Shown here: one piece after another, positions 4,499 through 36,334 of the stretch
Position numbering within the stretch: position 1 is the first letter of the stretch
Layout: every line of letters begins with the position of its first letter
The notes under the pieces: generated by a model
Seen by the model: only the letters and a program-made list of their open reading frames with translations
Databases searched by the model: none
What the model was told of the DNA's origin: nothing
Position numbers and translations under genes: made by a program
Source of the DNA: Patescibacteria group bacterium
GTDB taxonomy: Bacteria > Patescibacteriota > Patescibacteriia > Patescibacteriales > UBA12465
Direction: 5' to 3'
DNA: 36,746 nucleotides
Assembly (NCBI GenBank): GCA_022710685.1
Contig: JAKLGM010000008.1
Coordinates: 1 to 36,746, forward strand

Positions 4499-4927
4499 AT
4501 GAGACTCTGGAGCCTAGATCCTAAGTACTTAGACCGCCAAGGATTGTTAGCTGTCTGGCGGGAAGGATTGTTGGCGAAGAAGGTGTTGGCCGGCCGAACC
4601 AAGGGCTACAAGAACCACCCTCAGCTGCTTAGATTCAAGGCGGGCCAGAATCCGCAGGGCTTGATAAATAATTATTTATTTTGTATATTGGAAGAAGCTC
4701 AGAAACGAGGCTATCATTTTTCCGAGGATAAAGTGAGGAAATCAACAACGAAAGAAAAGATTGCGGTTACCTCAGGTCAGCTAGAATATGAGCGAGAGCA
4801 TCTCCTCAAGAAGCTGAAGCAGAGAAGCCCGGAAGACTACAGGACATTCAGGCAAGAGAAAAATATTCAATCAGCCAAGCTGTTTAGAACAACAAAAGGG
4901 AGGGTGGCTGACTGGGAAAAGATATAG
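4499..4927 (+). CDS. Pyrimidine dimer DNA glycosylase-like protein
   Basis: A 142-residue protein matching the pyrimidine-dimer glycosylase family (PF03013, T4 endonuclease V-like), which removes UV-induced cyclobutane dimers and cuts the abasic site. Visible family features are the N-terminal MRLWSLDPKYLD, WREGLLAKKVL with Glu22 at the place of the T4 catalytic Glu23, and KNHPQLLRF. T4 endonuclease V uses an N-terminal Thr2 as nucleophile; here residue 2 is Arg, so the chemistry may differ. The start is 2 nt after the ABC permease stop, so it rides on that operon. Confidence 0.8.
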   Translation: MRLWSLDPKYLDRQGLLAVWREGLLAKKVLAGRTKGYKNHPQLLRFKAGQNPQGLINNYLFCILEEAQKRGYHFSEDKVRKSTTKEKIAVTSGQLEYEREHLLKKLKQRSPEDYRTFRQEKNIQSAKLFRTTKGRVADWEKI

Positions 4928-7617: not shown

Positions 7618-7631
7618 GCACATATCTAAAA

Positions 7632-7658
7632 AGAGGCGGTGTCTATCCGCCTCTTTTT
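7632..7658 (+). terminator. Terminator after the DUF378 gene
   Basis: Perfect stem AGAGGCGG/CCGCCTCT with a 7-nt loop, then TTTT. Confidence 0.88.
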
Positions 7659-7659
7659 A

Positions 7660-7688
7660 TTGTAATATTTTAGCAGCCTGGTTATAAT
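7660..7688 (+). promoter_or_regulatory. Promoter of the six-gene operon 7723-12407
   Basis: TTGTAA, 17 bp, TATAAT, directly after the preceding terminator. The only promoter seen for the following six genes, whose gaps are 2 to 15 nt. An ATG at 7687 overlaps the -10 box and cannot be a start. Confidence 0.65.
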
Positions 7689-7722: not shown

Positions 7723-8115
7723 ATGAAATCAATCGTAATTTGCGGCAGCCGCCGCTTTGACAAGGAGATCGGTGACTTCGCCCAAAAACTAAAAGACTTA
7801 GGGGTGGTCGTTTATCGTCCTTTTTTCTATCGTGATTCTCTGGGAAATTGGGAAGGCCTATCTGATTATGATAAGCAGCTAGTCGCCGCCGGATTAACCC
7901 ATGATCATTTTTATAAGATTCGAATGGCTGATGTCGTTTTCATCTTTAACCAAGAGGATCATATCGGGGTTAATACTACTATGGAAATGGGCTATGCGGC
8001 CGCCTTAAATAAGCCGATCTATGCCTTGTCTGGAGTTGATGATGAGATCGGAAGAAAAATTATCTTTTCCGGCTTCATAGACAATCCAAAGGATTTATTT
8101 AAAATCTTGCAATAA
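7723..8115 (+). CDS. Nucleoside 2-deoxyribosyltransferase-like protein
   Basis: A 130-residue Rossmann-like protein. Features of the nucleoside 2-deoxyribosyltransferase / DUF4406 group are visible: N-terminal IVICGSRRF, the ADVVFIFN strand, and TTMEMGYAAALNKPIYAL, in which the glutamate sits where the catalytic nucleophile lies in the transferases. Such enzymes cleave or exchange the N-glycosidic bond of nucleosides or nucleotides. The start is taken as ATG 7723, since an upstream in-frame ATG falls in the promoter. It is the first gene of the operon, 5 nt before the aminotransferase, hinting that a nucleoside or nucleotide is a substrate or by-product of the pathway. Confidence 0.75.
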   Translation: MKSIVICGSRRFDKEIGDFAQKLKDLGVVVYRPFFYRDSLGNWEGLSDYDKQLVAAGLTHDHFYKIRMADVVFIFNQEDHIGVNTTMEMGYAAALNKPIYALSGVDDEIGRKIIFSGFIDNPKDLFKILQ

Positions 8116-8120
8116 TCAGA

Positions 8121-9227
8121 ATGCCTATGAAAATTCCTTTATACAAGCCCTATATCAGCCAAAGGGAAATCAAGGCGGTCGTCAACGTCTTGAAATCTGG
8201 TAAATTGAGCAAGGGGCAAGAGGTTGAATATTTTGAAAGGGAATTTGCCGATTATGTCGGCAAAAAATATGCGGTAGCAGTCAACAGCGGTACTAGCGGA
8301 CTACATCTTTTAGTTAGGGCTTTGAACTGGCAGAAGGGGGATGAAATTATCACCACCCCTTTCAGCTTCATCGCTTCCTCTAACGCTTTGCTCTTTGAGG
8401 ACGTTACCCCCGTCTTCGTAGATATCGATCCAAAGACTCTCAATATTGATGCCAATCAGATAGAAGCGAAAATAACGCCCCGCACTAAGGGCCTGCTTTT
8501 GGTTCATATTTTTGGCTTGCCGGTTGATTATCAAAAGATAAAAAGGCTGGGGAAGAAATATAAGTTACCGATAATTGAAGACGCCTGCGAGGCGCTGGCT
8601 CGGCCCAGCCATAAATTTAGAGTTAATGATTTGGGGGTCGCCACCGTTTATGGCTTATATGAAAATAAGCAGATAACTTCCGGCGGCGAAGGCGGAATGA
8701 TTGTGACAGATAGTAAGATTATCGCGCAGAAGTGCCGCTCTATGCGCGACCAAGGACGTTCTTTTCTAAAAAACTGGAAAGATAATGTCGTTTTAGGCTT
8801 TAACTTCAGGATGACGGAAATGCAAGCCGCTTTTGGCCGGCAGCAACTAAAAGTTATTAATAAAATTTTAGCTCAGCGGGAAAAGATAGCCGAAAAATAT
8901 TCCGCTTTGTTCGCCGGAATTGATGGCATAATAACACCCCATCAGCTGACAAAAAATCAAAGAAGCTGGTTTGCTTATTTCATCATATTAAAAGATAAGG
9001 CTACTCGCGACCAGGTTTGCCGCGACCTTTCAAGCCGCGGAATCGCTTCAAGCACCAACTATTTTCCTCCGATTTACACGTTTCCGATGTACGCCGCCGT
9101 TAATCCTAATTGCCCGGCCGCCGATGATATCTCGGATCGGATTTTGACGCTCCCGCTATTTTACGGAATGACTAACGCCGAGATCAAGCTAGTCATAAAT
9201 ACAATCATTAATTCTTTAAAAAAATAA
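8121..9227 (+). CDS. DegT/DnrJ/EryC1/StrS family PLP aminotransferase
   Basis: A 368-residue sugar-aminotransferase-like enzyme of fold type I. VNSGTSGLHLL (about 55-65) is the cofactor phosphate region, IIEDACEALA the aspartate that contacts the PLP nitrogen, and NKQITSGGEGG (182-192) holds the Schiff-base Lys183. SSTNYFPPIY is typical of the C-terminal part. Relatives make aminodeoxy sugars for glycans and antibiotics by transamination of NDP-keto sugars, and some act as dehydratases. No NDP-sugar genes are next door, so the substrate is open. ATG at 8121 or 8127 could start it. Confidence 0.92.
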   Translation: MPMKIPLYKPYISQREIKAVVNVLKSGKLSKGQEVEYFEREFADYVGKKYAVAVNSGTSGLHLLVRALNWQKGDEIITTPFSFIASSNALLFEDVTPVFVDIDPKTLNIDANQIEAKITPRTKGLLLVHIFGLPVDYQKIKRLGKKYKLPIIEDACEALARPSHKFRVNDLGVATVYGLYENKQITSGGEGGMIVTDSKIIAQKCRSMRDQGRSFLKNWKDNVVLGFNFRMTEMQAAFGRQQLKVINKILAQREKIAEKYSALFAGIDGIITPHQLTKNQRSWFAYFIILKDKATRDQVCRDLSSRGIASSTNYFPPIYTFPMYAAVNPNCPAADDISDRILTLPLFYGMTNAEIKLVINTIINSLKK

Positions 9228-9229
9228 AT

Positions 9230-9943
9230 ATGGATTCATCTGATAATTTTTATACATCATTTTCCGAATCTTACGCTGATTATTCTTCTTTGCGGAATAA
9301 TTATCTTTCTGCCGTTAATAATTTTATAGTAAGCGAAGTCCGCGAGGGAAAAAATATGGTTGACGTTGGCGGCGGTGACGGCAAACGCGGCCGGGAAATT
9401 GCTGATAGCCTCGGCCTTAAACAGTTCACTATCATTGAAAGCAGCGCTGGCATGGCTAAGCTGGCGCGGAGCATACCAAACGCTCAGGTTATAGAGAAAG
9501 ATATCTCCGACAGCTCTTTTGAACCAGATGGTAAATATGATGTCATATTATGCCTCTGGAATGTTTTGGGTCACATACCTGTAGACCGGCGCGCTATGGC
9601 TTTGAAGAATCTGAGAGCCTTATTATCTGATGGTGGCTTTATTTTTTTAGATGTCAATAACCGCTATAATCTCCATTATGGATTAAAAGCGGTTATCAAG
9701 AATATCGGCCGGGACATCTTTTCTCCTGACAAAAACAATGGAGATTTTGTTTTGAATATGGAGAATAAGCAGGGGCAGAAAATAAGCACTATTACCCATG
9801 TCTTTAGCCCTTATGAAACTGAAAGATTATTCAAGCAGGCCGGACTCCGAGTAGTGAAGCGCGCCTATATCCATTACAAGACTGGCCAGAGAAAGAATAA
9901 TTTCTGGGGCGGGCACCTGGTATATAAGCTCGGAAAATATTAA
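9230..9943 (+). CDS. Class I SAM-dependent methyltransferase
   Basis: A 237-residue methyltransferase. SAM-binding motif I is MVDVGGGDGKRG, followed by the acidic IIESS, an aspartate before KYDVILCLWNVLGHIP (motif IV region) and GGFIFLDVNNRYN. The C-terminal RLFKQAGLRVVKRAYI is usual for small-molecule methyltransferases. It lies 2 nt after the aminotransferase gene, so the two are translationally coupled and probably act in one pathway, for example on an amino group introduced by the former. The substrate is unknown. Confidence 0.9.
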   Translation: MDSSDNFYTSFSESYADYSSLRNNYLSAVNNFIVSEVREGKNMVDVGGGDGKRGREIADSLGLKQFTIIESSAGMAKLARSIPNAQVIEKDISDSSFEPDGKYDVILCLWNVLGHIPVDRRAMALKNLRALLSDGGFIFLDVNNRYNLHYGLKAVIKNIGRDIFSPDKNNGDFVLNMENKQGQKISTITHVFSPYETERLFKQAGLRVVKRAYIHYKTGQRKNNFWGGHLVYKLGKY

Positions 9944-9958
9944 TTTAGCGACATCTAT

Positions 9959-10360
9959 ATGAAAAATTGCGTTTTTTGCTCAATTATAAAAGACAACAAG
10001 CCCTTCCATCAAATTGTTTGGCAAGACAAGAATCATCTAGCTTTTTTAGACGCTTTTTCTTCGCTAGACGGACATCTCCAGGTGATTCCGAAAAAGCACG
10101 TCAACTATCTGTTCGATTTAGATGATCGAGAATATGCCGCTCTTTTCCGGGCAGTTAAAAAAGTCGCCGCACTCTTGAAAAAAACTTTTAAGTGCAAGCG
10201 GGTCGGTCTTGCCGTCGAAGGATTCAGCGTCCCGCACGCCCACATCCATTTAGTGCCATTAAATTCCAGCACTGCCTTTCAAACTGACAACAGGGGACAG
10301 GAACGGCGCTCGCCCGAAGACTTGCTTCGTATTGCCAACCGAATTCGCAAAAACATTTAA
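9959..10360 (+). CDS. HIT (histidine triad) family hydrolase
   Basis: A 133-residue HIT protein with the N-terminal CVFCSII and the catalytic triad HAHIHLVPL after VEGFSVP. HINT-type enzymes cleave AMP from phosphoramidates and from acyl- or aminoacyl-adenylates. It lies 3 nt before a methionyl-tRNA synthetase paralogue, whose chemistry would make an aminoacyl-adenylate, so a substrate link is plausible. The fold is certain; the link is inferred. Confidence 0.93.
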   Translation: MKNCVFCSIIKDNKPFHQIVWQDKNHLAFLDAFSSLDGHLQVIPKKHVNYLFDLDDREYAALFRAVKKVAALLKKTFKCKRVGLAVEGFSVPHAHIHLVPLNSSTAFQTDNRGQERRSPEDLLRIANRIRKNI

Positions 10361-10363
10361 TTT

Positions 10364-11635
10364 ATGAAAAGGTTAATTCTTGATAAAAAATCATATATAA
10401 TTACGATTTCGCCGCCATATGTCAACTCCGCCCCGCACATCGGTTATGCTTTTGAAGCAGCCATTGCTGATACCTTGGCGCGATATCTGAGATTTTTAGG
10501 CAAGACGGTAACTTTTATTGGCAGCACGGACGATAATAGTTTTAAACTGGTGGAAGCGGCTAAACGCGCCGGGATGGACACCAAAGCTTTTGTCGATAAA
10601 TTCGCGGCTGAGTACGCCGCCCTGCCGAAAAAACTAGGACTCTCCTATGATGTCTTTTACCGAACCGCGACCAAAGAACATGGCGATTTCGTAAACTCAT
10701 TGATCGACCGGATAGATCGCCGCCAAATCTACAAAGACAGATTCAAATCATATTTTTGTATTGATTGCGAGCAATTTTTCGGGCTAGACATACCGGAGCC
10801 GAGAATTTGTCCCATCCATAATAAAGCCTATTCTTTTTTTGATGAAGAAAATTACTTTTTAAAAATAGACGACTCGGACAAGGAGCGGCTACTAACAGAA
10901 TTGACGAGCAAGAGTATTTTTCCGGCCAAAGCTCTAGATTTAAGCCGAGAAATAATAGCCGGTTATAAAAGCTTTAATTTTACAGTGAGGAACCGCTACG
11001 ACTGGGGTTTAGTATTCAAGCAAGACCCGGAATACGTTTTTTATTCATCTTTTGACGCCGTGTTGGGATATTTAGGCAGTTGCCCGAATCAAGATGCCGA
11101 TTGGCGCGATCCTGACACCTGCCTGATACAAAATTTCGGCTTGGATATATTGAAATTCCACTCCGCCTATTTGCCGCTCATCATGTTGAAGCTAGGATTA
11201 TCACCCTTGCCTGATTATTTGTTGGCTCATGGCCTAATCCAGGCAAATGGCGCCAAGATGTCCAAATCAAAGAATAATGCCGTTAGCGTTGATGATCTAT
11301 TGAAGAAATTTGATCCTGCCAGTCTACGCTTATATTTGTTGCGGCATGATTTATTCGCTGATTTTGATTATAACGAAGCCGAGATTGAAAAGATCCATTT
11401 AATTTATAATAAATTCATCGACAAGTTTCTGCCTGATGTTAAAAAAGCGCCTCGCCCCTTAGCGGCTAGACCGGATCTGTTTGATGCTAACATTTGCAGC
11501 TTTGACTTTAAAGCCAATATTGATGAATTTATTGATCTAATTGAAAAAAAGGATAATTTTATAGATCTAGATCCGGCCCAAACTAACTTTTTGCTTAAAT
11601 TTTTTACAGTATTTTTATCCTTTGACACTAAGTAA
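10364..11635 (+). CDS. Methionyl-tRNA synthetase paralogue (class I, altered pocket)
   Basis: A 423-residue class I synthetase core, clearly homologous to the genuine MetRS at 34901. It keeps HIGY (25-28), KMSKS (298-302) and a zinc knob (Cys132, Cys135, Cys149), so adenylation looks possible. Methionine-pocket positions have changed: LPY is PPY (Pro17), the TDEHG motif is TDDNS (56-60), and the pocket tryptophan in YVWFDA is a serine (Ser229 in FYSSFDA). The C-terminal anticodon-binding helical region is short and degenerate. It probably activates another amino or carboxylic acid for a small-molecule pathway and is not a second housekeeping MetRS. Confidence 0.85.
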   Translation: MKRLILDKKSYIITISPPYVNSAPHIGYAFEAAIADTLARYLRFLGKTVTFIGSTDDNSFKLVEAAKRAGMDTKAFVDKFAAEYAALPKKLGLSYDVFYRTATKEHGDFVNSLIDRIDRRQIYKDRFKSYFCIDCEQFFGLDIPEPRICPIHNKAYSFFDEENYFLKIDDSDKERLLTELTSKSIFPAKALDLSREIIAGYKSFNFTVRNRYDWGLVFKQDPEYVFYSSFDAVLGYLGSCPNQDADWRDPDTCLIQNFGLDILKFHSAYLPLIMLKLGLSPLPDYLLAHGLIQANGAKMSKSKNNAVSVDDLLKKFDPASLRLYLLRHDLFADFDYNEAEIEKIHLIYNKFIDKFLPDVKKAPRPLAARPDLFDANICSFDFKANIDEFIDLIEKKDNFIDLDPAQTNFLLKFFTVFLSFDTK

Positions 11636-11642
11636 GATTGAT

Positions 11643-12407
11643 ATGGAAAAACTATTTATCAAAAATCGAAAAAATCAGAATCTCTCGGTTATTGTTGAGC
11701 GATCAAATGACCAAAAGGGCCTGGCTTTCGTTATGCATGGCTTGGGGGATTCCAAAGACTCAGACCACATCAAGATGTTCTCCAAATGTTTCCAAGATAA
11801 TCATTACACGACGGTCAGGTTTGATACTACAAACACTTTGGGCGAGAGCGATGGTGTTTTTGAGAACGCCAACATCACTAATTACTACGAAGACTTAGAG
11901 GATGTTATCGCTTGGTCAAAAATCCAAGATTTTTACCAAGAACCATTCATTCTGTGCGGCCATAGCCTGGGGGCAATTTCTACCGCTTTTTATGCCGAAA
12001 GCTATTCTGAAAAGGTCAAAGCCTTAGCTCCATTTTCTACTGTAATCAATGCTGATCTCAGCCGCCAAACATACACCGAAGAAGAATTAGAAGATTGGGA
12101 AAAAACCGGCTGGCTAGTGGAGGACTGGGGGCCGCAGGGCAAGATTAGACTGAAATGGTCATACATGGAAGAAAAAGAAAAGTATGATTTATTAAAAAAG
12201 GTTGATAGATTGACCATGCCGACATTAATGATTGTGGGGGAATTAGATAACACCACTCCGCTACGACACCAACAAATTCTATTTGATAAATTGCCGGGGA
12301 GAAAAGAATTACATGTTATTAATGACGCCCCGCATACTTTCAGGAGTGAGGCGCACTTAGAGAAGGTTTATCAAATTTTAGATAAATGGATCAAGTCTTT
12401 AGAGTAA
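11643..12407 (+). CDS. Alpha/beta hydrolase
   Basis: A 254-residue alpha/beta hydrolase. The oxyanion-side motif is FVMHGLGD, the nucleophile elbow is GHSLG (Ser108), the acid is in VGELDNTTP and the histidine in NDAPHTF. The family includes esterases, lipases and acyl-transfer enzymes. ATG 11643 is chosen because homologues start at MEKLF; an ATG at 11622 would overlap the previous gene. It is the last gene of the six-gene operon, where an ester- or thioester-cleaving step would fit. No terminator is evident after it. Confidence 0.88.
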   Translation: MEKLFIKNRKNQNLSVIVERSNDQKGLAFVMHGLGDSKDSDHIKMFSKCFQDNHYTTVRFDTTNTLGESDGVFENANITNYYEDLEDVIAWSKIQDFYQEPFILCGHSLGAISTAFYAESYSEKVKALAPFSTVINADLSRQTYTEEELEDWEKTGWLVEDWGPQGKIRLKWSYMEEKEKYDLLKKVDRLTMPTLMIVGELDNTTPLRHQQILFDKLPGRKELHVINDAPHTFRSEAHLEKVYQILDKWIKSLE

Positions 12408-17657: not shown

Positions 17658-19175
17658 ATGAAACTACTACCTCGAATTATCGGCTCCCGTCGGTGGCGCC
17701 AAATTGAACGCTTCAAATCCAATCCTTCTTCAACGCAAGAAAAGGTCTTATTGGCTTTACTCAAAAAAGCGGCCCGAACTAAAATCGGCCAAGAATATAA
17801 TTTCTCTAAAATAAAAAACAGCGCCGACTTCCAGCAAAAAATTCCAGTCAGAAGCTATGACGATTTTAAACCCTATATTGAACAAGCCTTGGCGGGAGAA
17901 CCCAATATTATTTGGCCCGGAAAGATTACTTGGTTTGCTAAATCATCTGGCACTACCAGTGACAAAAGCAAATATCTACCCATTACTCAGGAGGCGTTAA
18001 AGCGCTGTCATTATCGCGCCGGCAAAGATGTCTTGTGGATGTACTACCTTAATTATCCGGAAACCAGAATCTATCGTGGCAAAAGCTTGATAGTCGGCGG
18101 CAGCCACCAGATTAGTAGTTTTAACAGCGGTTCGCGCTTAGGCGATCTGTCGGCCATTTTGATTCAGAATCTTCCAGTCTTCGCCCACTTAGTCCGAACA
18201 CCAAATCTTGAAGTAACATTAATGAACGAATGGGAAAGCAAGATAAAAAAGATGGCGGAAGAAACCATCAAAGAGAACGTCACTAATATTTCCGGCGTGC
18301 CTTCTTGGACGCTAGTGCTAATTAAAACCATCCTGCAAATGACAGGCAAAAGCAACCTACGTGAAGTCTGGCCCAGCTTGGAGGTATTTATCCATGGCGG
18401 CGTCAGCTTCAATCCCTATCGCGCGGAATTTGCCCGCGTTATTCCGGCGGACAATATGCGCTATCTGGAGGTCTACAACGCCTCGGAAGGATTCTTCGCC
18501 ATCCAAGACAAAAAGGACCGCGATGACCTCCTGCTAATGCTTGACTATGGAATTTTCTACGAATTTATTCCGATTGATGACTTCCACTCCGGTAATTGGA
18601 AAGCGCTATCCCTTAACGAAGTCGAGCTAGACAAAAATTATGCCTTAGTTATTAGCACTAACGCCGGCTTGTGGCGTTATCTTATCGGCGATGTAGTCAA
18701 ATTTACCAGCCGCGATCCATATCGGATAAAGATTACTGGGCGCACTAAGCATTTCATCAATGTTTTCGGCGAAGAATTAATGATTGATAATGTTGAGCAA
18801 GCCCTGGCCTTAACCTGTCACCAGCACAATACTTCAATTAAAGATTATACGGTGGCACCGATTTTTATGGACCAAAACCAGAAAGGACAGCACGAATGGC
18901 TGATAGAATTTTATCAAGCTCCATCTGATTCGCAGAAGTTTATGGCAGAATTAGACGCTAATTTACAGCAGCTCAACTCTGATTATGAATCTAAGCGCTA
19001 TAAAGATATTACACTCGCAGCGCCAAAACTAACGATTGCGCGCGCTGATCTTTTCTATGACTGGCTCAAAGCTAAGGGCAAGTTAGGCGGTCAGCACAAG
19101 GTTCCGCGCCTAAGTAATGAAAGGAACATCATGGAAGAAATAAAAAGTCTAAATAATAAAGCCAAGTCGGATTAA
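17658..19175 (+). CDS. GH3-family acyl/amino-acid adenylase
   Basis: A 505-residue member of the GH3 family (PF03321), named after plant enzymes that adenylate a carboxylic acid and join it to an amino acid. The ATP phosphate loop SSGTTSDKSKYLP (96-108) and the hinge-region GRTKHFINVFGEEL are clear, as is the N-terminal PVRSYDDFKPYIE. Bacterial members are thought to activate fatty or aromatic acids. No acyl partner gene is adjacent, but acyl-carrier-like genes lie at 28796-29409. The last codons lie in a terminator stem shared with the convergent gene. Confidence 0.9.
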   Translation: MKLLPRIIGSRRWRQIERFKSNPSSTQEKVLLALLKKAARTKIGQEYNFSKIKNSADFQQKIPVRSYDDFKPYIEQALAGEPNIIWPGKITWFAKSSGTTSDKSKYLPITQEALKRCHYRAGKDVLWMYYLNYPETRIYRGKSLIVGGSHQISSFNSGSRLGDLSAILIQNLPVFAHLVRTPNLEVTLMNEWESKIKKMAEETIKENVTNISGVPSWTLVLIKTILQMTGKSNLREVWPSLEVFIHGGVSFNPYRAEFARVIPADNMRYLEVYNASEGFFAIQDKKDRDDLLLMLDYGIFYEFIPIDDFHSGNWKALSLNEVELDKNYALVISTNAGLWRYLIGDVVKFTSRDPYRIKITGRTKHFINVFGEELMIDNVEQALALTCHQHNTSIKDYTVAPIFMDQNQKGQHEWLIEFYQAPSDSQKFMAELDANLQQLNSDYESKRYKDITLAAPKLTIARADLFYDWLKAKGKLGGQHKVPRLSNERNIMEEIKSLNNKAKSD

Positions 19176-32537: not shown

Positions 32538-34214
32538 ATGGTTAGCCCTAATTTAATCAAAAAAGGCCAAAGTTTTCTAACGGTGAACCCTAATGCCAAA
32601 AAGCTTTTTCAGCTTATCTATGGCAAGAAGCAGAAAGCGGAAACTGCCTTTGACGATGAAACCCCGAAAATTCATGTCTCCCATATCGTTTCTCAGCTAT
32701 CCTTCCTCTACGAGAAGATCAGAAATGCCGTCGATTATGACGACGATCATTTACTCCGGAAAAATGCCATTAAAAGAATAATCAAGCGCCAAATCTTCAT
32801 CGAAGGCGCCTTGGTTGATTATGACAGCGAAGAGATAGCGATGAAACTTCTAACCGAGCTAATTCAGGCCGGTTATTTGCCGAATGACAAGATTCCAGAG
32901 ATAAAAATCAAAGAGGTCGCCAGCTTGCTGGAAAAATATATCATGCTTCGCCACCGCTACAAGAAAATCCATCCTGCCAATCTGGACATGAAAGAAAAGG
33001 AAAGCCATGAACGGTCGCTAGTCATGAACTGGATTATCACTCTCGCCGCCACTGAAATCGAGGAAAATTTGAATCGGGATGACGTCAAGCGCCTAGTGGT
33101 TTCTAATATCTTTGAAATTCTTTCCCGCACCATCAAGATGCCGAACGATCTGCCTTACCAAAAAGACTTAGATATCCAAATCTACCTATCAATCGCGCGC
33201 AATTTTCTAAAATTAGATCTAGACATGCAAAGCTTTGTGGCTTTCAAATATTATAATAACTGGGAAGAAGCTACCGGCGAAGATATCAAAAGGATTGCCG
33301 CCGACCTGAATGCTATCCACGCCTTAGTGGAGAAACAGCTGAAACACCCCCTGATAAAGCAGATAGACAAGATTGTCCGCCGTTATTCCTTATACTATTC
33401 CTTGCTAACCGAAGTGATTGAGGAAAACCCCAGCAAAGTCTATGATAATGCCACTAGTAATACTAAGGCTTTTTTGAACCTAATCAAAGAAAAGTGCGAA
33501 AAAAAATATTCCAAGGTTAAATCCCGACTCTGGCGTTCCGGCTTGCGCAGTATTATTTATATCTTTTTAACCAAATCTATTTTTGTCTTGCTGCTAGAAA
33601 TACCAGCCATCAAGTTCTTTGGCGAAAAAGTCAACCCGTTAGCCTTAATCATCAACATCTCTTTCCCGGCCATCCTACTATTTATCATAATCCTTTTTAC
33701 CAAGACACCGAACAAGAAGAACACCGAAAAAATCATTGAAGGCATCAAGGAAGTAACTTTCATAGAAAACCAAAAGTTCCAGCCGATTTATCTGCGCAAG
33801 GATACTCGCCGTAATTACCTGATGAACATCCTTTTCAATTTGATCTACACCACTGCCTTCCTCTTGACTGTTTATCTGTTGATAAAGTTACTACACCTAT
33901 TCTCCTTTAACTGGGTCAGCGTCACTATCTTCTTGTTCTTCTTGGCTTTTGTCAGCTTCTTCTCCTTCCGCATCAAGCGCGACGTCAAACAATGGATAAT
34001 CACTGAAAGCCGGGAAACCATCCTGAGTTTCATCTTTGATTTTTTCTACATGCCAATCGTAGCTGTCGGCAAATGGCTTTCTAGCAATATTTCCCGCATC
34101 AACGTCTTCATCTTTGTCTTAGACTTCATTATTGAAACTCCTTTCAAAGTTATCGTCGGCATCATCGAGGACTGGACCAAATACTTGAAAGAAAAGAAAG
34201 AGGATTTATCATAA
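32538..34214 (+). CDS. Large membrane protein, unknown function
   Basis: A 558-residue protein I do not recognise. The first 335 residues are soluble, charged and helical. Then come two hydrophobic pairs (IIYIFLTKSIFVLLLEIPAI, ALIINISFPAILLFIIIL, then NILFNLIYTTAFLLTVYLL and VSVTIFLFFLAFVSFFSF), and a C-terminal part with weaker hydrophobic stretches ending in a lysine-rich tail. No catalytic motif stands out. It shares a promoter region with the secE operon and is followed 4 nt later by rsmI, suggesting co-expression with translation genes. Confidence 0.8.
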   Translation: MVSPNLIKKGQSFLTVNPNAKKLFQLIYGKKQKAETAFDDETPKIHVSHIVSQLSFLYEKIRNAVDYDDDHLLRKNAIKRIIKRQIFIEGALVDYDSEEIAMKLLTELIQAGYLPNDKIPEIKIKEVASLLEKYIMLRHRYKKIHPANLDMKEKESHERSLVMNWIITLAATEIEENLNRDDVKRLVVSNIFEILSRTIKMPNDLPYQKDLDIQIYLSIARNFLKLDLDMQSFVAFKYYNNWEEATGEDIKRIAADLNAIHALVEKQLKHPLIKQIDKIVRRYSLYYSLLTEVIEENPSKVYDNATSNTKAFLNLIKEKCEKKYSKVKSRLWRSGLRSIIYIFLTKSIFVLLLEIPAIKFFGEKVNPLALIINISFPAILLFIIILFTKTPNKKNTEKIIEGIKEVTFIENQKFQPIYLRKDTRRNYLMNILFNLIYTTAFLLTVYLLIKLLHLFSFNWVSVTIFLFFLAFVSFFSFRIKRDVKQWIITESRETILSFIFDFFYMPIVAVGKWLSSNISRINVFIFVLDFIIETPFKVIVGIIEDWTKYLKEKKEDLS

Positions 34215-34900: not shown

Positions 34901-36334
34901 ATGACTGACCATAACCATTTCTATATCACTACCACCTTGCCTTATATCAACGCTGAGCCGCACATCGGTTTTGCCGCGGAAATTATCCGCGCCGATGCCA
35001 TCGCCCGCTATGAGCGTCTCTTAGGTAAGAAGGTTTTCTTCAACACGGGTACAGACGAGCACGGCCTGAAGATATTCCGCAAAGCGGAAGAAAACAAGAT
35101 TGAACCGCAAGCCTATTGCGACCAGCTAGCCAAAAAATTTGAAGCTCTAAAACAAACGCTAAACCTGAGCTATGACAGTTTTATCCGCACCACTGACCAG
35201 CATCATCTAGAGGCGGCCCAAGAATTCTGGCGCCGCTGTCTGGCCAAAGGCGATATCTACAAAAAAGCCTACCAGGTAAAATATTGTGTCGGCTGCGAAT
35301 TGGAAAAGACCGAATCAGAACTAGTTAACGGCCGCTGTCCGCTCCACCCGGACAAGGACCCGGAAATGATCGAAGAGGAAAATTACTTCTTCCGTTTTTC
35401 CAATTATCAAAAGCCGCTCCTAGATTTCTATAACAATAATCCGGATTTTGTCTTACCCCATCATCGCTTCACTGAAATCAAGAATTTCGTGGAAGGTGGC
35501 TTACAAGATTTTTCCATTTCTCGCCTCAAAAGCAAGATGCCTTGGGGCGTGGCCGTGCCTGATGATCCGGAGCAGGTGATGTATGTCTGGTTTGATGCTT
35601 TGATAAACTATATTTCTTGTCTTGGATGGCCAAAAAATGACCAAAAATTCAGCAATTTTTGGCCCGGACTCCAAGTCTGCGGCAAAGATAATCTGCGCCA
35701 ACAAACTGCCATGTGGCAAGCCATGTTGCTTTCGGCCGCGCTACCGAACTCCGAACAAGTCCTAATCTTCGGCTTCATCACCAACAACGGCCAGAAGATG
35801 AGCAAGTCTTTAGGCAATGTGGTTGATCCTCTGGCTCTGGTGGAAAAATTTGGCATTGATCCGACCCGCTATTATCTTTTGAAAGAAATCCAAGTCTTTG
35901 AAGACAGCGACTTCAACGAAGAAAATGTTACCAAGCTATACAATGCCGACCTAGCCAATGGCTTAGGCAATTTAGCCGCTCGCACTGCTAACCTCTTAGA
36001 AAAGAATGAGATCCAATTAGAGTTAAAGTTAAACAGCGATGAAGAGTTGGAAAATTCTTTCAAGGACAAGATGAGCGAATATGCTTTAGGGGAAGCCTTA
36101 AAAGTATTATGGGACAAGGTCAAAGCCAGCGATGAGTTCTTGAGCCAGACCACTCCTTGGAAATTATCCGATAAAGAAGAAATTGCTACAATTCTCCGGC
36201 CAGTAGCCCAAAACATCTTAAACATCGCTTATTGGCTCTCACCCTTCATGCCCGAGACCGCTAAAAAAATCCGAGAACAATATAGTGCGACTCAAATCAA
36301 AAAAGGCGAACCGCTCTTTCCGCGCTTAGCCTAA
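34901..36334 (+). CDS. metG: Methionyl-tRNA synthetase
   Basis: A 477-residue class I synthetase that charges tRNA-Met. HIGF (21-24), TGTDEHG (49-55), the pocket Trp230 in MYVWFDA and KMSKS (299-303) are all present, with a zinc knob of Cys129, Cys132 and Cys146. The C-terminal helical anticodon domain is complete to about residue 475, with no C-terminal dimerisation domain. It keeps the normal methionine pocket, in contrast to the paralogue at 10364. Confidence 0.95.
   Translation: MTDHNHFYITTTLPYINAEPHIGFAAEIIRADAIARYERLLGKKVFFNTGTDEHGLKIFRKAEENKIEPQAYCDQLAKKFEALKQTLNLSYDSFIRTTDQHHLEAAQEFWRRCLAKGDIYKKAYQVKYCVGCELEKTESELVNGRCPLHPDKDPEMIEEENYFFRFSNYQKPLLDFYNNNPDFVLPHHRFTEIKNFVEGGLQDFSISRLKSKMPWGVAVPDDPEQVMYVWFDALINYISCLGWPKNDQKFSNFWPGLQVCGKDNLRQQTAMWQAMLLSAALPNSEQVLIFGFITNNGQKMSKSLGNVVDPLALVEKFGIDPTRYYLLKEIQVFEDSDFNEENVTKLYNADLANGLGNLAARTANLLEKNEIQLELKLNSDEELENSFKDKMSEYALGEALKVLWDKVKASDEFLSQTTPWKLSDKEEIATILRPVAQNILNIAYWLSPFMPETAKKIREQYSATQIKKGEPLFPRLA

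Follow-up and report, generated by a model that had tools for sequence, protein, structure and literature searches.

A six-gene operon in the genome of a Patescibacteria group bacterium (GCA_022710685.1) is, with a probability of roughly 0.55, a laterally acquired cluster for the synthesis of a decorated amino-sugar, possibly nucleoside, small molecule, to which a truncated paralogue of methionyl-tRNA synthetase (MetRS) would ligate an amino acid. The operon occupies positions 7723-12407 of contig JAKLGM010000008.1, all 36,746 nucleotides of which were analysed and are here called the window. Three observations carry this reading: the gene content of the operon, the loss of methionine and anticodon residues from a synthetase that has kept its adenylation motifs, and the co-clustering of DegT aminotransferase, methyltransferase, nucleoside 2-deoxyribosyltransferase (NDT) and aminoacyl-tRNA synthetase (aaRS) families elsewhere. 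The features concerned are as follows.

7629..7688, + strand: terminator-like hairpin of the upstream DUF378 gene, then a sigma-70-like promoter match (consensus match, no enrichment over shuffled sequences)
7723..8115, + strand: NDT-family protein (PF05014, 5e-9)
8121..9227, + strand: DegT/DnrJ/EryC1/StrS aminotransferase (PF01041, 3e-103)
9230..9943, + strand: class I S-adenosylmethionine-dependent methyltransferase of a rare family (Methyltransf_23, 5e-13)
9959..10360, + strand: HIT-domain protein (HIT, 1e-16)
10364-11635, + strand: truncated MetRS paralogue (tRNA-synt_1g, 6e-50)
11640..12407, + strand: alpha/beta hydrolase (Abhydrolase_1, 1e-15)
34901..36334, + strand: ordinary MetRS of the genome, a comparator outside the operon

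The six open reading frames (ORFs) are open and run head to tail on the + strand with intergenic gaps of 5, 2, 15, 3 and 4 nt in order, in agreement with the preliminary description of this DNA (six co-directional genes, gaps of 2-15 nt), and Pfam assigns the families that it had named. Its label of MetRS paralogue also holds, the ordinary MetRS being separately present in the same window; this is the sole one in the genome, groups with the MetRS of a same-genus genome in the tree, and is about 31% identical to the paralogue.

The paralogue keeps both adenylation motifs, HIGH (residues 25-28, HIGY) and KMSKS (298-302). When its residues were mapped onto the numbering of E. coli MetRS in an alignment with 34 ordinary MetRSs, His21/Gly23, Asp52, Ala256, Tyr260 and Asp296 were found to be retained, and Leu13, Val252, Trp253, Pro257 and Trp305 to be replaced by Pro, Ser, Ser, Val and Leu, respectively. 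Val252 and Trp253 are invariant in 34/34 of the ordinary enzymes and Trp305 is present in 33/34; the changed positions of the methionine pocket are S228, S229 and L270 in the paralogue's own numbering. Trp461 is missing (alignment gap). In the E. coli enzyme, residues 252, 253 and 305 are established to bind methionine, and 461 the anticodon. The C-terminus is about 60 residues shorter, and we infer that the anticodon-binding domain has been lost; the zinc site is a single CxxC-CPxH knuckle (CIDC...CPIH). Among columns conserved in 15 ordinary MetRSs, the paralogue deviates at 78 of 147, and its best NCBIfam MetRS score (214.6 bits) is below the cut-off of 598. The simplest reading of these residues is an enzyme that retains adenylation, has changed its choice of amino acid and no longer reads an anticodon; it is unlikely to serve as a methionyl-tRNA synthetase, and the earlier view of it as a non-canonical synthetase is thus upheld by the loss of the methionine pocket and Trp461 with the adenylation motifs kept. 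In the tree the paralogue stands beside a patescibacterial MetRS (86/86) on a very long branch, so that its origin is uncertain. Plasmid-encoded MetRS-like proteins of Embleya, Streptomyces and Rhizobium have TDDNS in place of TDEHG, a motif that the paralogue also has; this was rejected as a family signature because those proteins keep an intact methionine pocket and a full C-terminus and form a well supported separate clade, and the motif is treated as convergent.

The other evidence for a biosynthetic role comes from a sub-module that recurs. The methyltransferase is found in 3 of 380 genomes across the phylum (this genome and two designated G325 and G428), and in both of the others a DegT aminotransferase and a GT4 glycosyltransferase are close by. 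In G428 (G428:C1, L058:1-8967) the DegT gene is followed by those for the methyltransferase and GT4, next to genes for an ABC-F protein and a LOG-type protein, and its DegT protein has RPS and (Y/F)ENK features in common with that of the operon, which adjoins the same methyltransferase. The LOG-type gene, identified by eye as nucleotide phosphoribohydrolase-like, is on the opposite strand. The G325 cluster is a convergent arrangement with the methyltransferase at the contig end: one strand encodes an NDT-like protein, a class I LysRS-like protein and a GT-B protein, and the other encodes GT4, a UDP-sugar dehydratase, DegT, a PIG-L deacetylase and a formyltransferase. The LysRS-like protein (337 aa) stops at the end of the catalytic domain (PF01921) and its gene occurs in 1 of the 380 genomes; the GT-B protein has a weak match to cytosylglucuronate (CGA) synthase (TIGR04467, 1.7e-6, below cut-off). 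With genes this rare, chance is a poor explanation for the joint presence of DegT, methyltransferase, NDT and truncated aaRS in G325, and the stretch is a putative nucleoside- or glycoside-type cluster. The same stretch (G325:C6:80000-92328, L059:1-12329) also contains, by eye, an ABC-F gene and an ITPase/HAM1-like gene. Matches to the DegT protein elsewhere in the phylum are in legionaminic/pseudaminic-type clusters, which were set aside as relatives of the operon because they have no aaRS paralogue.

The sole plasmid homologue of the methyltransferase (28% identical over 96%, 1e-9) belongs to plasmid p1 of Rhodococcus sp. 2G.

NZ_CP018064.1 41279-59033 (L089 / L094): Rhodococcus sp. 2G plasmid p1 cluster

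The gene order there is DegT-GT4-methyltransferase-NDT-CGA-synthase homologue, with the NDT gene directly 3' of the methyltransferase gene and the CGA-synthase homologue below cut-off (TIGR04467, 1e-56). Deoxysugar genes (NDP-hexose 2,3-dehydratase, RfbH), an ABC-F-type ATPase and a prolyl aminopeptidase are also present; we know of no description of this cluster. A blasticidin-type cluster of Kitasatospora NBC_00039 likewise contains NDT, DegT, methyltransferase, ABC-F-type ATPase and aminopeptidase genes, and at least one related DegT/methyltransferase/GT4 cluster looks nucleoside-antibiotic-like. The earlier proposal of a small-molecule operon stands in so far as the set looks biosynthetic, its DegT, methyltransferase, NDT and truncated aaRS families recur in a distant member of the phylum, and three of these are also in the actinobacterial antibiotic-type cluster of Rhodococcus.

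In the synthesis of mildiomycin and blasticidin S, the base is released from CMP by the NDT-family hydrolase MilB and coupled to UDP-glucuronate by MilC/BlsD, addition of the 4'-amino group is tentatively attributed to the DegT enzyme MilD, and amino acids are attached next; in blasticidin S the leucyl group is later taken off by PepN (PMC11784345, PMC3715490, PMC5572114, PMC4664946). Like these clusters (BlsM/MilB, BlsD/MilC, BlsH/MilD, BlsL, PepN), the operon combines NDT-family, DegT and methyltransferase genes, and counterparts of the aminoacyl-transfer and hydrolytic deprotection steps may be proposed for it by analogy; the related Rhodococcus and G325 clusters share CGA-synthase-like genes with them. 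Unlike them, the operon has no CGA synthase (looked for in the window alone) or CGA decarboxylase gene in its vicinity, aminoacylation would fall to the truncated MetRS, and the NDT-family protein, which retains a catalytic-type Glu in ..TTMEMGYAAALNKPI, lacks the NAHxxExWG block common to the BlsM-type CMP hydrolases. Among the papers searched, none joins Patescibacteria and nucleoside antibiotics as a topic.

None of the six proteins reaches an NCBIfam equivalog cut-off. The DegT protein resembles PseC, ArnB and perosamine-type aminotransferases in its retained pyridoxal phosphate-binding lysine (motif ENKQ) and extended similarity, and scores 281 bits against the PseC cut-off of 423.5; its closest solved structures are sugar and scyllo-inosose aminotransferases. 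The HIT protein, the second of the genome (the core one is at G000:C3:4736-5122, G000 being this genome), has an intact HAHIH motif (HAHIHLVP), the HINT-type HxHxHxx catalytic motif. The alpha/beta hydrolase has a GHSLG nucleophile motif and a PHTF histidine, and cinnamoyl-esterase-type hydrolases are among its closest solved structures.

A precedent for the proposed ligation is MshC, a CysRS-derived class I aaRS paralogue that passes an aminoacyl-adenylate to an amino sugar instead of tRNA (PMC9437257). The operon paralogue is also a class I aaRS paralogue, for which amino-sugar ligation is proposed here by analogy, and in G325 the truncated aaRS has as neighbours the GT4 and PIG-L families, which also serve in mycothiol synthesis. 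Unlike MshC, the paralogue is MetRS-derived and its partner genes differ; its match to TIGR03447 (MshC) covers the generic KMSKS region alone (39 bits, cut-off 485). MetRS-like domains are known to activate Glu, Gly, Ser, Ala or Tyr independently of tRNA (PMC8664883). Thus there are precedents for the proposed use of a truncated synthetase as an amino acid:amine ligase, and in this lineage with these partners it appears to be new.

For the pathway, every catalytic step, substrate and product is what we infer from these likenesses. The DegT enzyme would aminate a keto-sugar (or cyclitol), and the methyltransferase would methylate the product. The truncated MetRS paralogue would activate an amino acid other than methionine as the aminoacyl-adenylate and hand it to the amine (or hydroxyl) of the amino-sugar product instead of tRNA, on the model of MshC in mycothiol formation and of MetRS-like enzymes in hydrazine formation. 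The NDT-family protein would probably cleave or exchange an N-glycosidic bond and so provide a base or a sugar phosphate. A nucleotide by-product (stray adenylate or diadenosine tetraphosphate, Ap4A) may be hydrolysed by the HIT protein, and the alpha/beta hydrolase may trim or deprotect an ester or aminoacyl group. A more specific partnership of the HIT protein with the synthetase, as proposed earlier, found no backing: a HIT gene is absent from the examined stretches of all three related clusters, and the HIT and alpha/beta hydrolase genes have no conserved link to the DegT/methyltransferase module. The HIT protein may act on the adenylate of the paralogue. Its closest relative in the family sits beside a different alpha/beta hydrolase: in genome G478 (L081:9609-10949), a HIT gene whose product is 42% identical to that of the operon is directly downstream of an alpha/beta hydrolase gene, with the other operon genes absent, and 3 kb from this pair lies an ABC-F gene that shares 75% identity with its counterpart in the window.

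A GC-rich hairpin and T run at about 7629-7660, identified by eye, closes the preceding DUF378 gene, and just 3' of it a promoter consensus scan found TTGTAA-17-TATAAT at 7660-7688. The mechanical ORF list gave ATG 7687 as the start of the first ORF and TTG 11622 as that of the last; the position of the promoter match and the hairpin favour ATG 7723 as the start of the first gene, where the preliminary description had placed it. Its claim that one promoter serves all six genes is plausible in view of this consensus match and goes no further, because promoter matches (15 sites, 13 +/- 4 in shuffled sequence) and terminator matches in the operon region are no commoner than in shuffled sequence. 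The last stop is 82 nt from the next gene (YibE/F). The G+C content of the operon (0.40-0.43) is not distinctive, and that of the terminal hydrolase gene is lower. The operon is flanked by native genes, ABC-F (75% identity) and YibE/F (68-70%), as judged against relatives in the same family, which argues that the contig is not foreign and that lateral acquisition is the simplest account of the operon.

Searches of 59 close relatives, 111 genomes of the order and 380 genomes across the phylum yielded no orthologue of the paralogue; the other matches were ordinary MetRSs. In about 85,000 species genomes, a pattern scan able to detect only close relatives returned just an ordinary MetRS, and there is no close relative in IMG/VR, plasmids or phages, on which ground a phage- or plasmid-borne system was rejected. 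The YibE/F flank of five relatives has no operon genes adjoining it. The same gene order, whose conservation had been put forward as a check, is in no other genome examined, and a conserved core operon of Patescibacteria was rejected. As to whether the genes are scattered in relatives, the full six-gene system was not confirmed elsewhere and the sub-module recurs. A defence system was also rejected, PADLOC yielding just generic methyltransferase (mad2) and HIT (ThsC) matches.

Several points weigh against a dedicated biosynthetic cluster. Patescibacterial genomes are compact, and short gaps are no proof of a pathway. Since no orthologue of the paralogue was found, its function is without support from conservation; both structure predictions were too poor for use (pLDDT 56 and 41), and Arg233 falls in an alignment gap beside Arg209, which may replace it. 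The Rhodococcus DegT protein is no close orthologue of that of the operon (25% identical). The NDT proteins of the operon and of G325 and Rhodococcus have the family alone in common and are not orthologous, and the aaRS paralogues differ in type (MetRS in the operon, LysRS-I in G325), so that part of the resemblance between clusters is functional analogy. The HIT and alpha/beta hydrolase genes are not in the related patescibacterial clusters (G325, G428), and no GT4, CGA synthase or sugar dehydratase gene is near the operon, the window being the part of the genome that was searched for them.

Some of these genes could instead belong to a surface glycan, DegT and methyltransferase making an N-methylated amino sugar to which the aaRS paralogue adds an amino acid, with NDT and HIT as unrelated salvage genes caught up in the shared transcription unit. 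The G325 cluster, in which DegT and methyltransferase accompany a UDP-sugar dehydratase, PIG-L, formyltransferase and GT4, is a typical polysaccharide set, GT4 adjoins the methyltransferase in G428, and the phylum's other DegT matches are in legionaminic/pseudaminic-type clusters; however, no glycosyltransferase, flippase or polymerase gene adjoins the operon, and elsewhere the same methyltransferase is accompanied by NDT-family and CGA-synthase-type genes, which leaves this unlikely. It is also rather unlikely that the operon is a random pile of lateral genes under a promoter made common by compaction, with a paralogue that is a decaying or stress-related second synthetase of unrelated role, for example one making Ap4A that the HIT protein degrades. 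The set of six as such was not found in any other genome, the HIT-hydrolase adjacency exists without the other genes in G478, and aaRSs without bound tRNA can make Ap4A, which HIT-superfamily proteins degrade or bind among such nucleotides (PMC10148737), but the frame of the paralogue is open with HIGH, KMSKS, Asp52 and Asp296 intact, and the G325 clustering does not look fortuitous.

The paralogue might further be assigned to the cupin-associated MetRS-like hydrazine synthetases (PyrN, Spb40, Tri28), with an N-N or N-O linked product. The general idea is the same, a MetRS-derived, tRNA-independent enzyme with altered amino acid choice (PMC2922099, PMC8664883), and activation of other amino acids without tRNA would be expected of both. 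In contrast to these enzymes, the paralogue has a truncated C-terminus and a single zinc knuckle instead of the described duplicated Zn ribbon of archaeo-eukaryotic type (PMC2922099); domain scans that covered the operon proteins and most ORFs of the window gave no cupin match, the lysine/ornithine N-hydroxylase domain PF13434 is absent from this 89%-complete genome, and the tree puts the paralogue, on its very long branch, beside a patescibacterial MetRS. Membership was rejected on the cupin, PF13434 and zinc evidence, and the assignment is very improbable. Second aaRS copies often give antibiotic resistance (PMC9437257), yet a back-up MetRS for self-protection or resistance is scarcely credible here, the loss of the methionine-pocket and anticodon tryptophans making replacement of MetRS in translation implausible.

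Elsewhere in the window, a GH3-family acyl-acid-amido synthetase gene (17658-19175; PF03321, 1.7e-62), unexpected in a Patescibacterium, encodes another adenylate-forming enzyme on the same contig as the operon. A pyrimidine-dimer DNA glycosylase-like gene (4499-4927; PF03013) adjoins tRNA-Gln, and a 558-aa ORF (32538-34214) upstream of the ordinary MetRS has no Pfam match at 1e-6.

As a candidate biosynthetic cluster, the operon bears on how these organisms live. With their minimal metabolism, Patescibacteria are believed to live at the expense of other cells, and in a genome of 0.9 Mb a dedicated small-molecule operon would be a concrete lead to effects on hosts or competitors. Its truncated synthetase is an apparently independent case, to judge from its residues, of a tRNA synthetase that has lost tRNA and methionine recognition and kept its adenylation motifs. 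A bolder and decidedly speculative extension is that some Patescibacteria make peptidyl-nucleoside-type antibiotics or signals by an assembly logic of their own, the amino acid being attached by independently recruited truncated class I aaRS paralogues (MetRS here, LysRS-I in G325); if true, such products would be a chemical weapon or signal of episymbionts toward their hosts or competitors. The chemistry may be easier to test in the G325 and Rhodococcus plasmid clusters.

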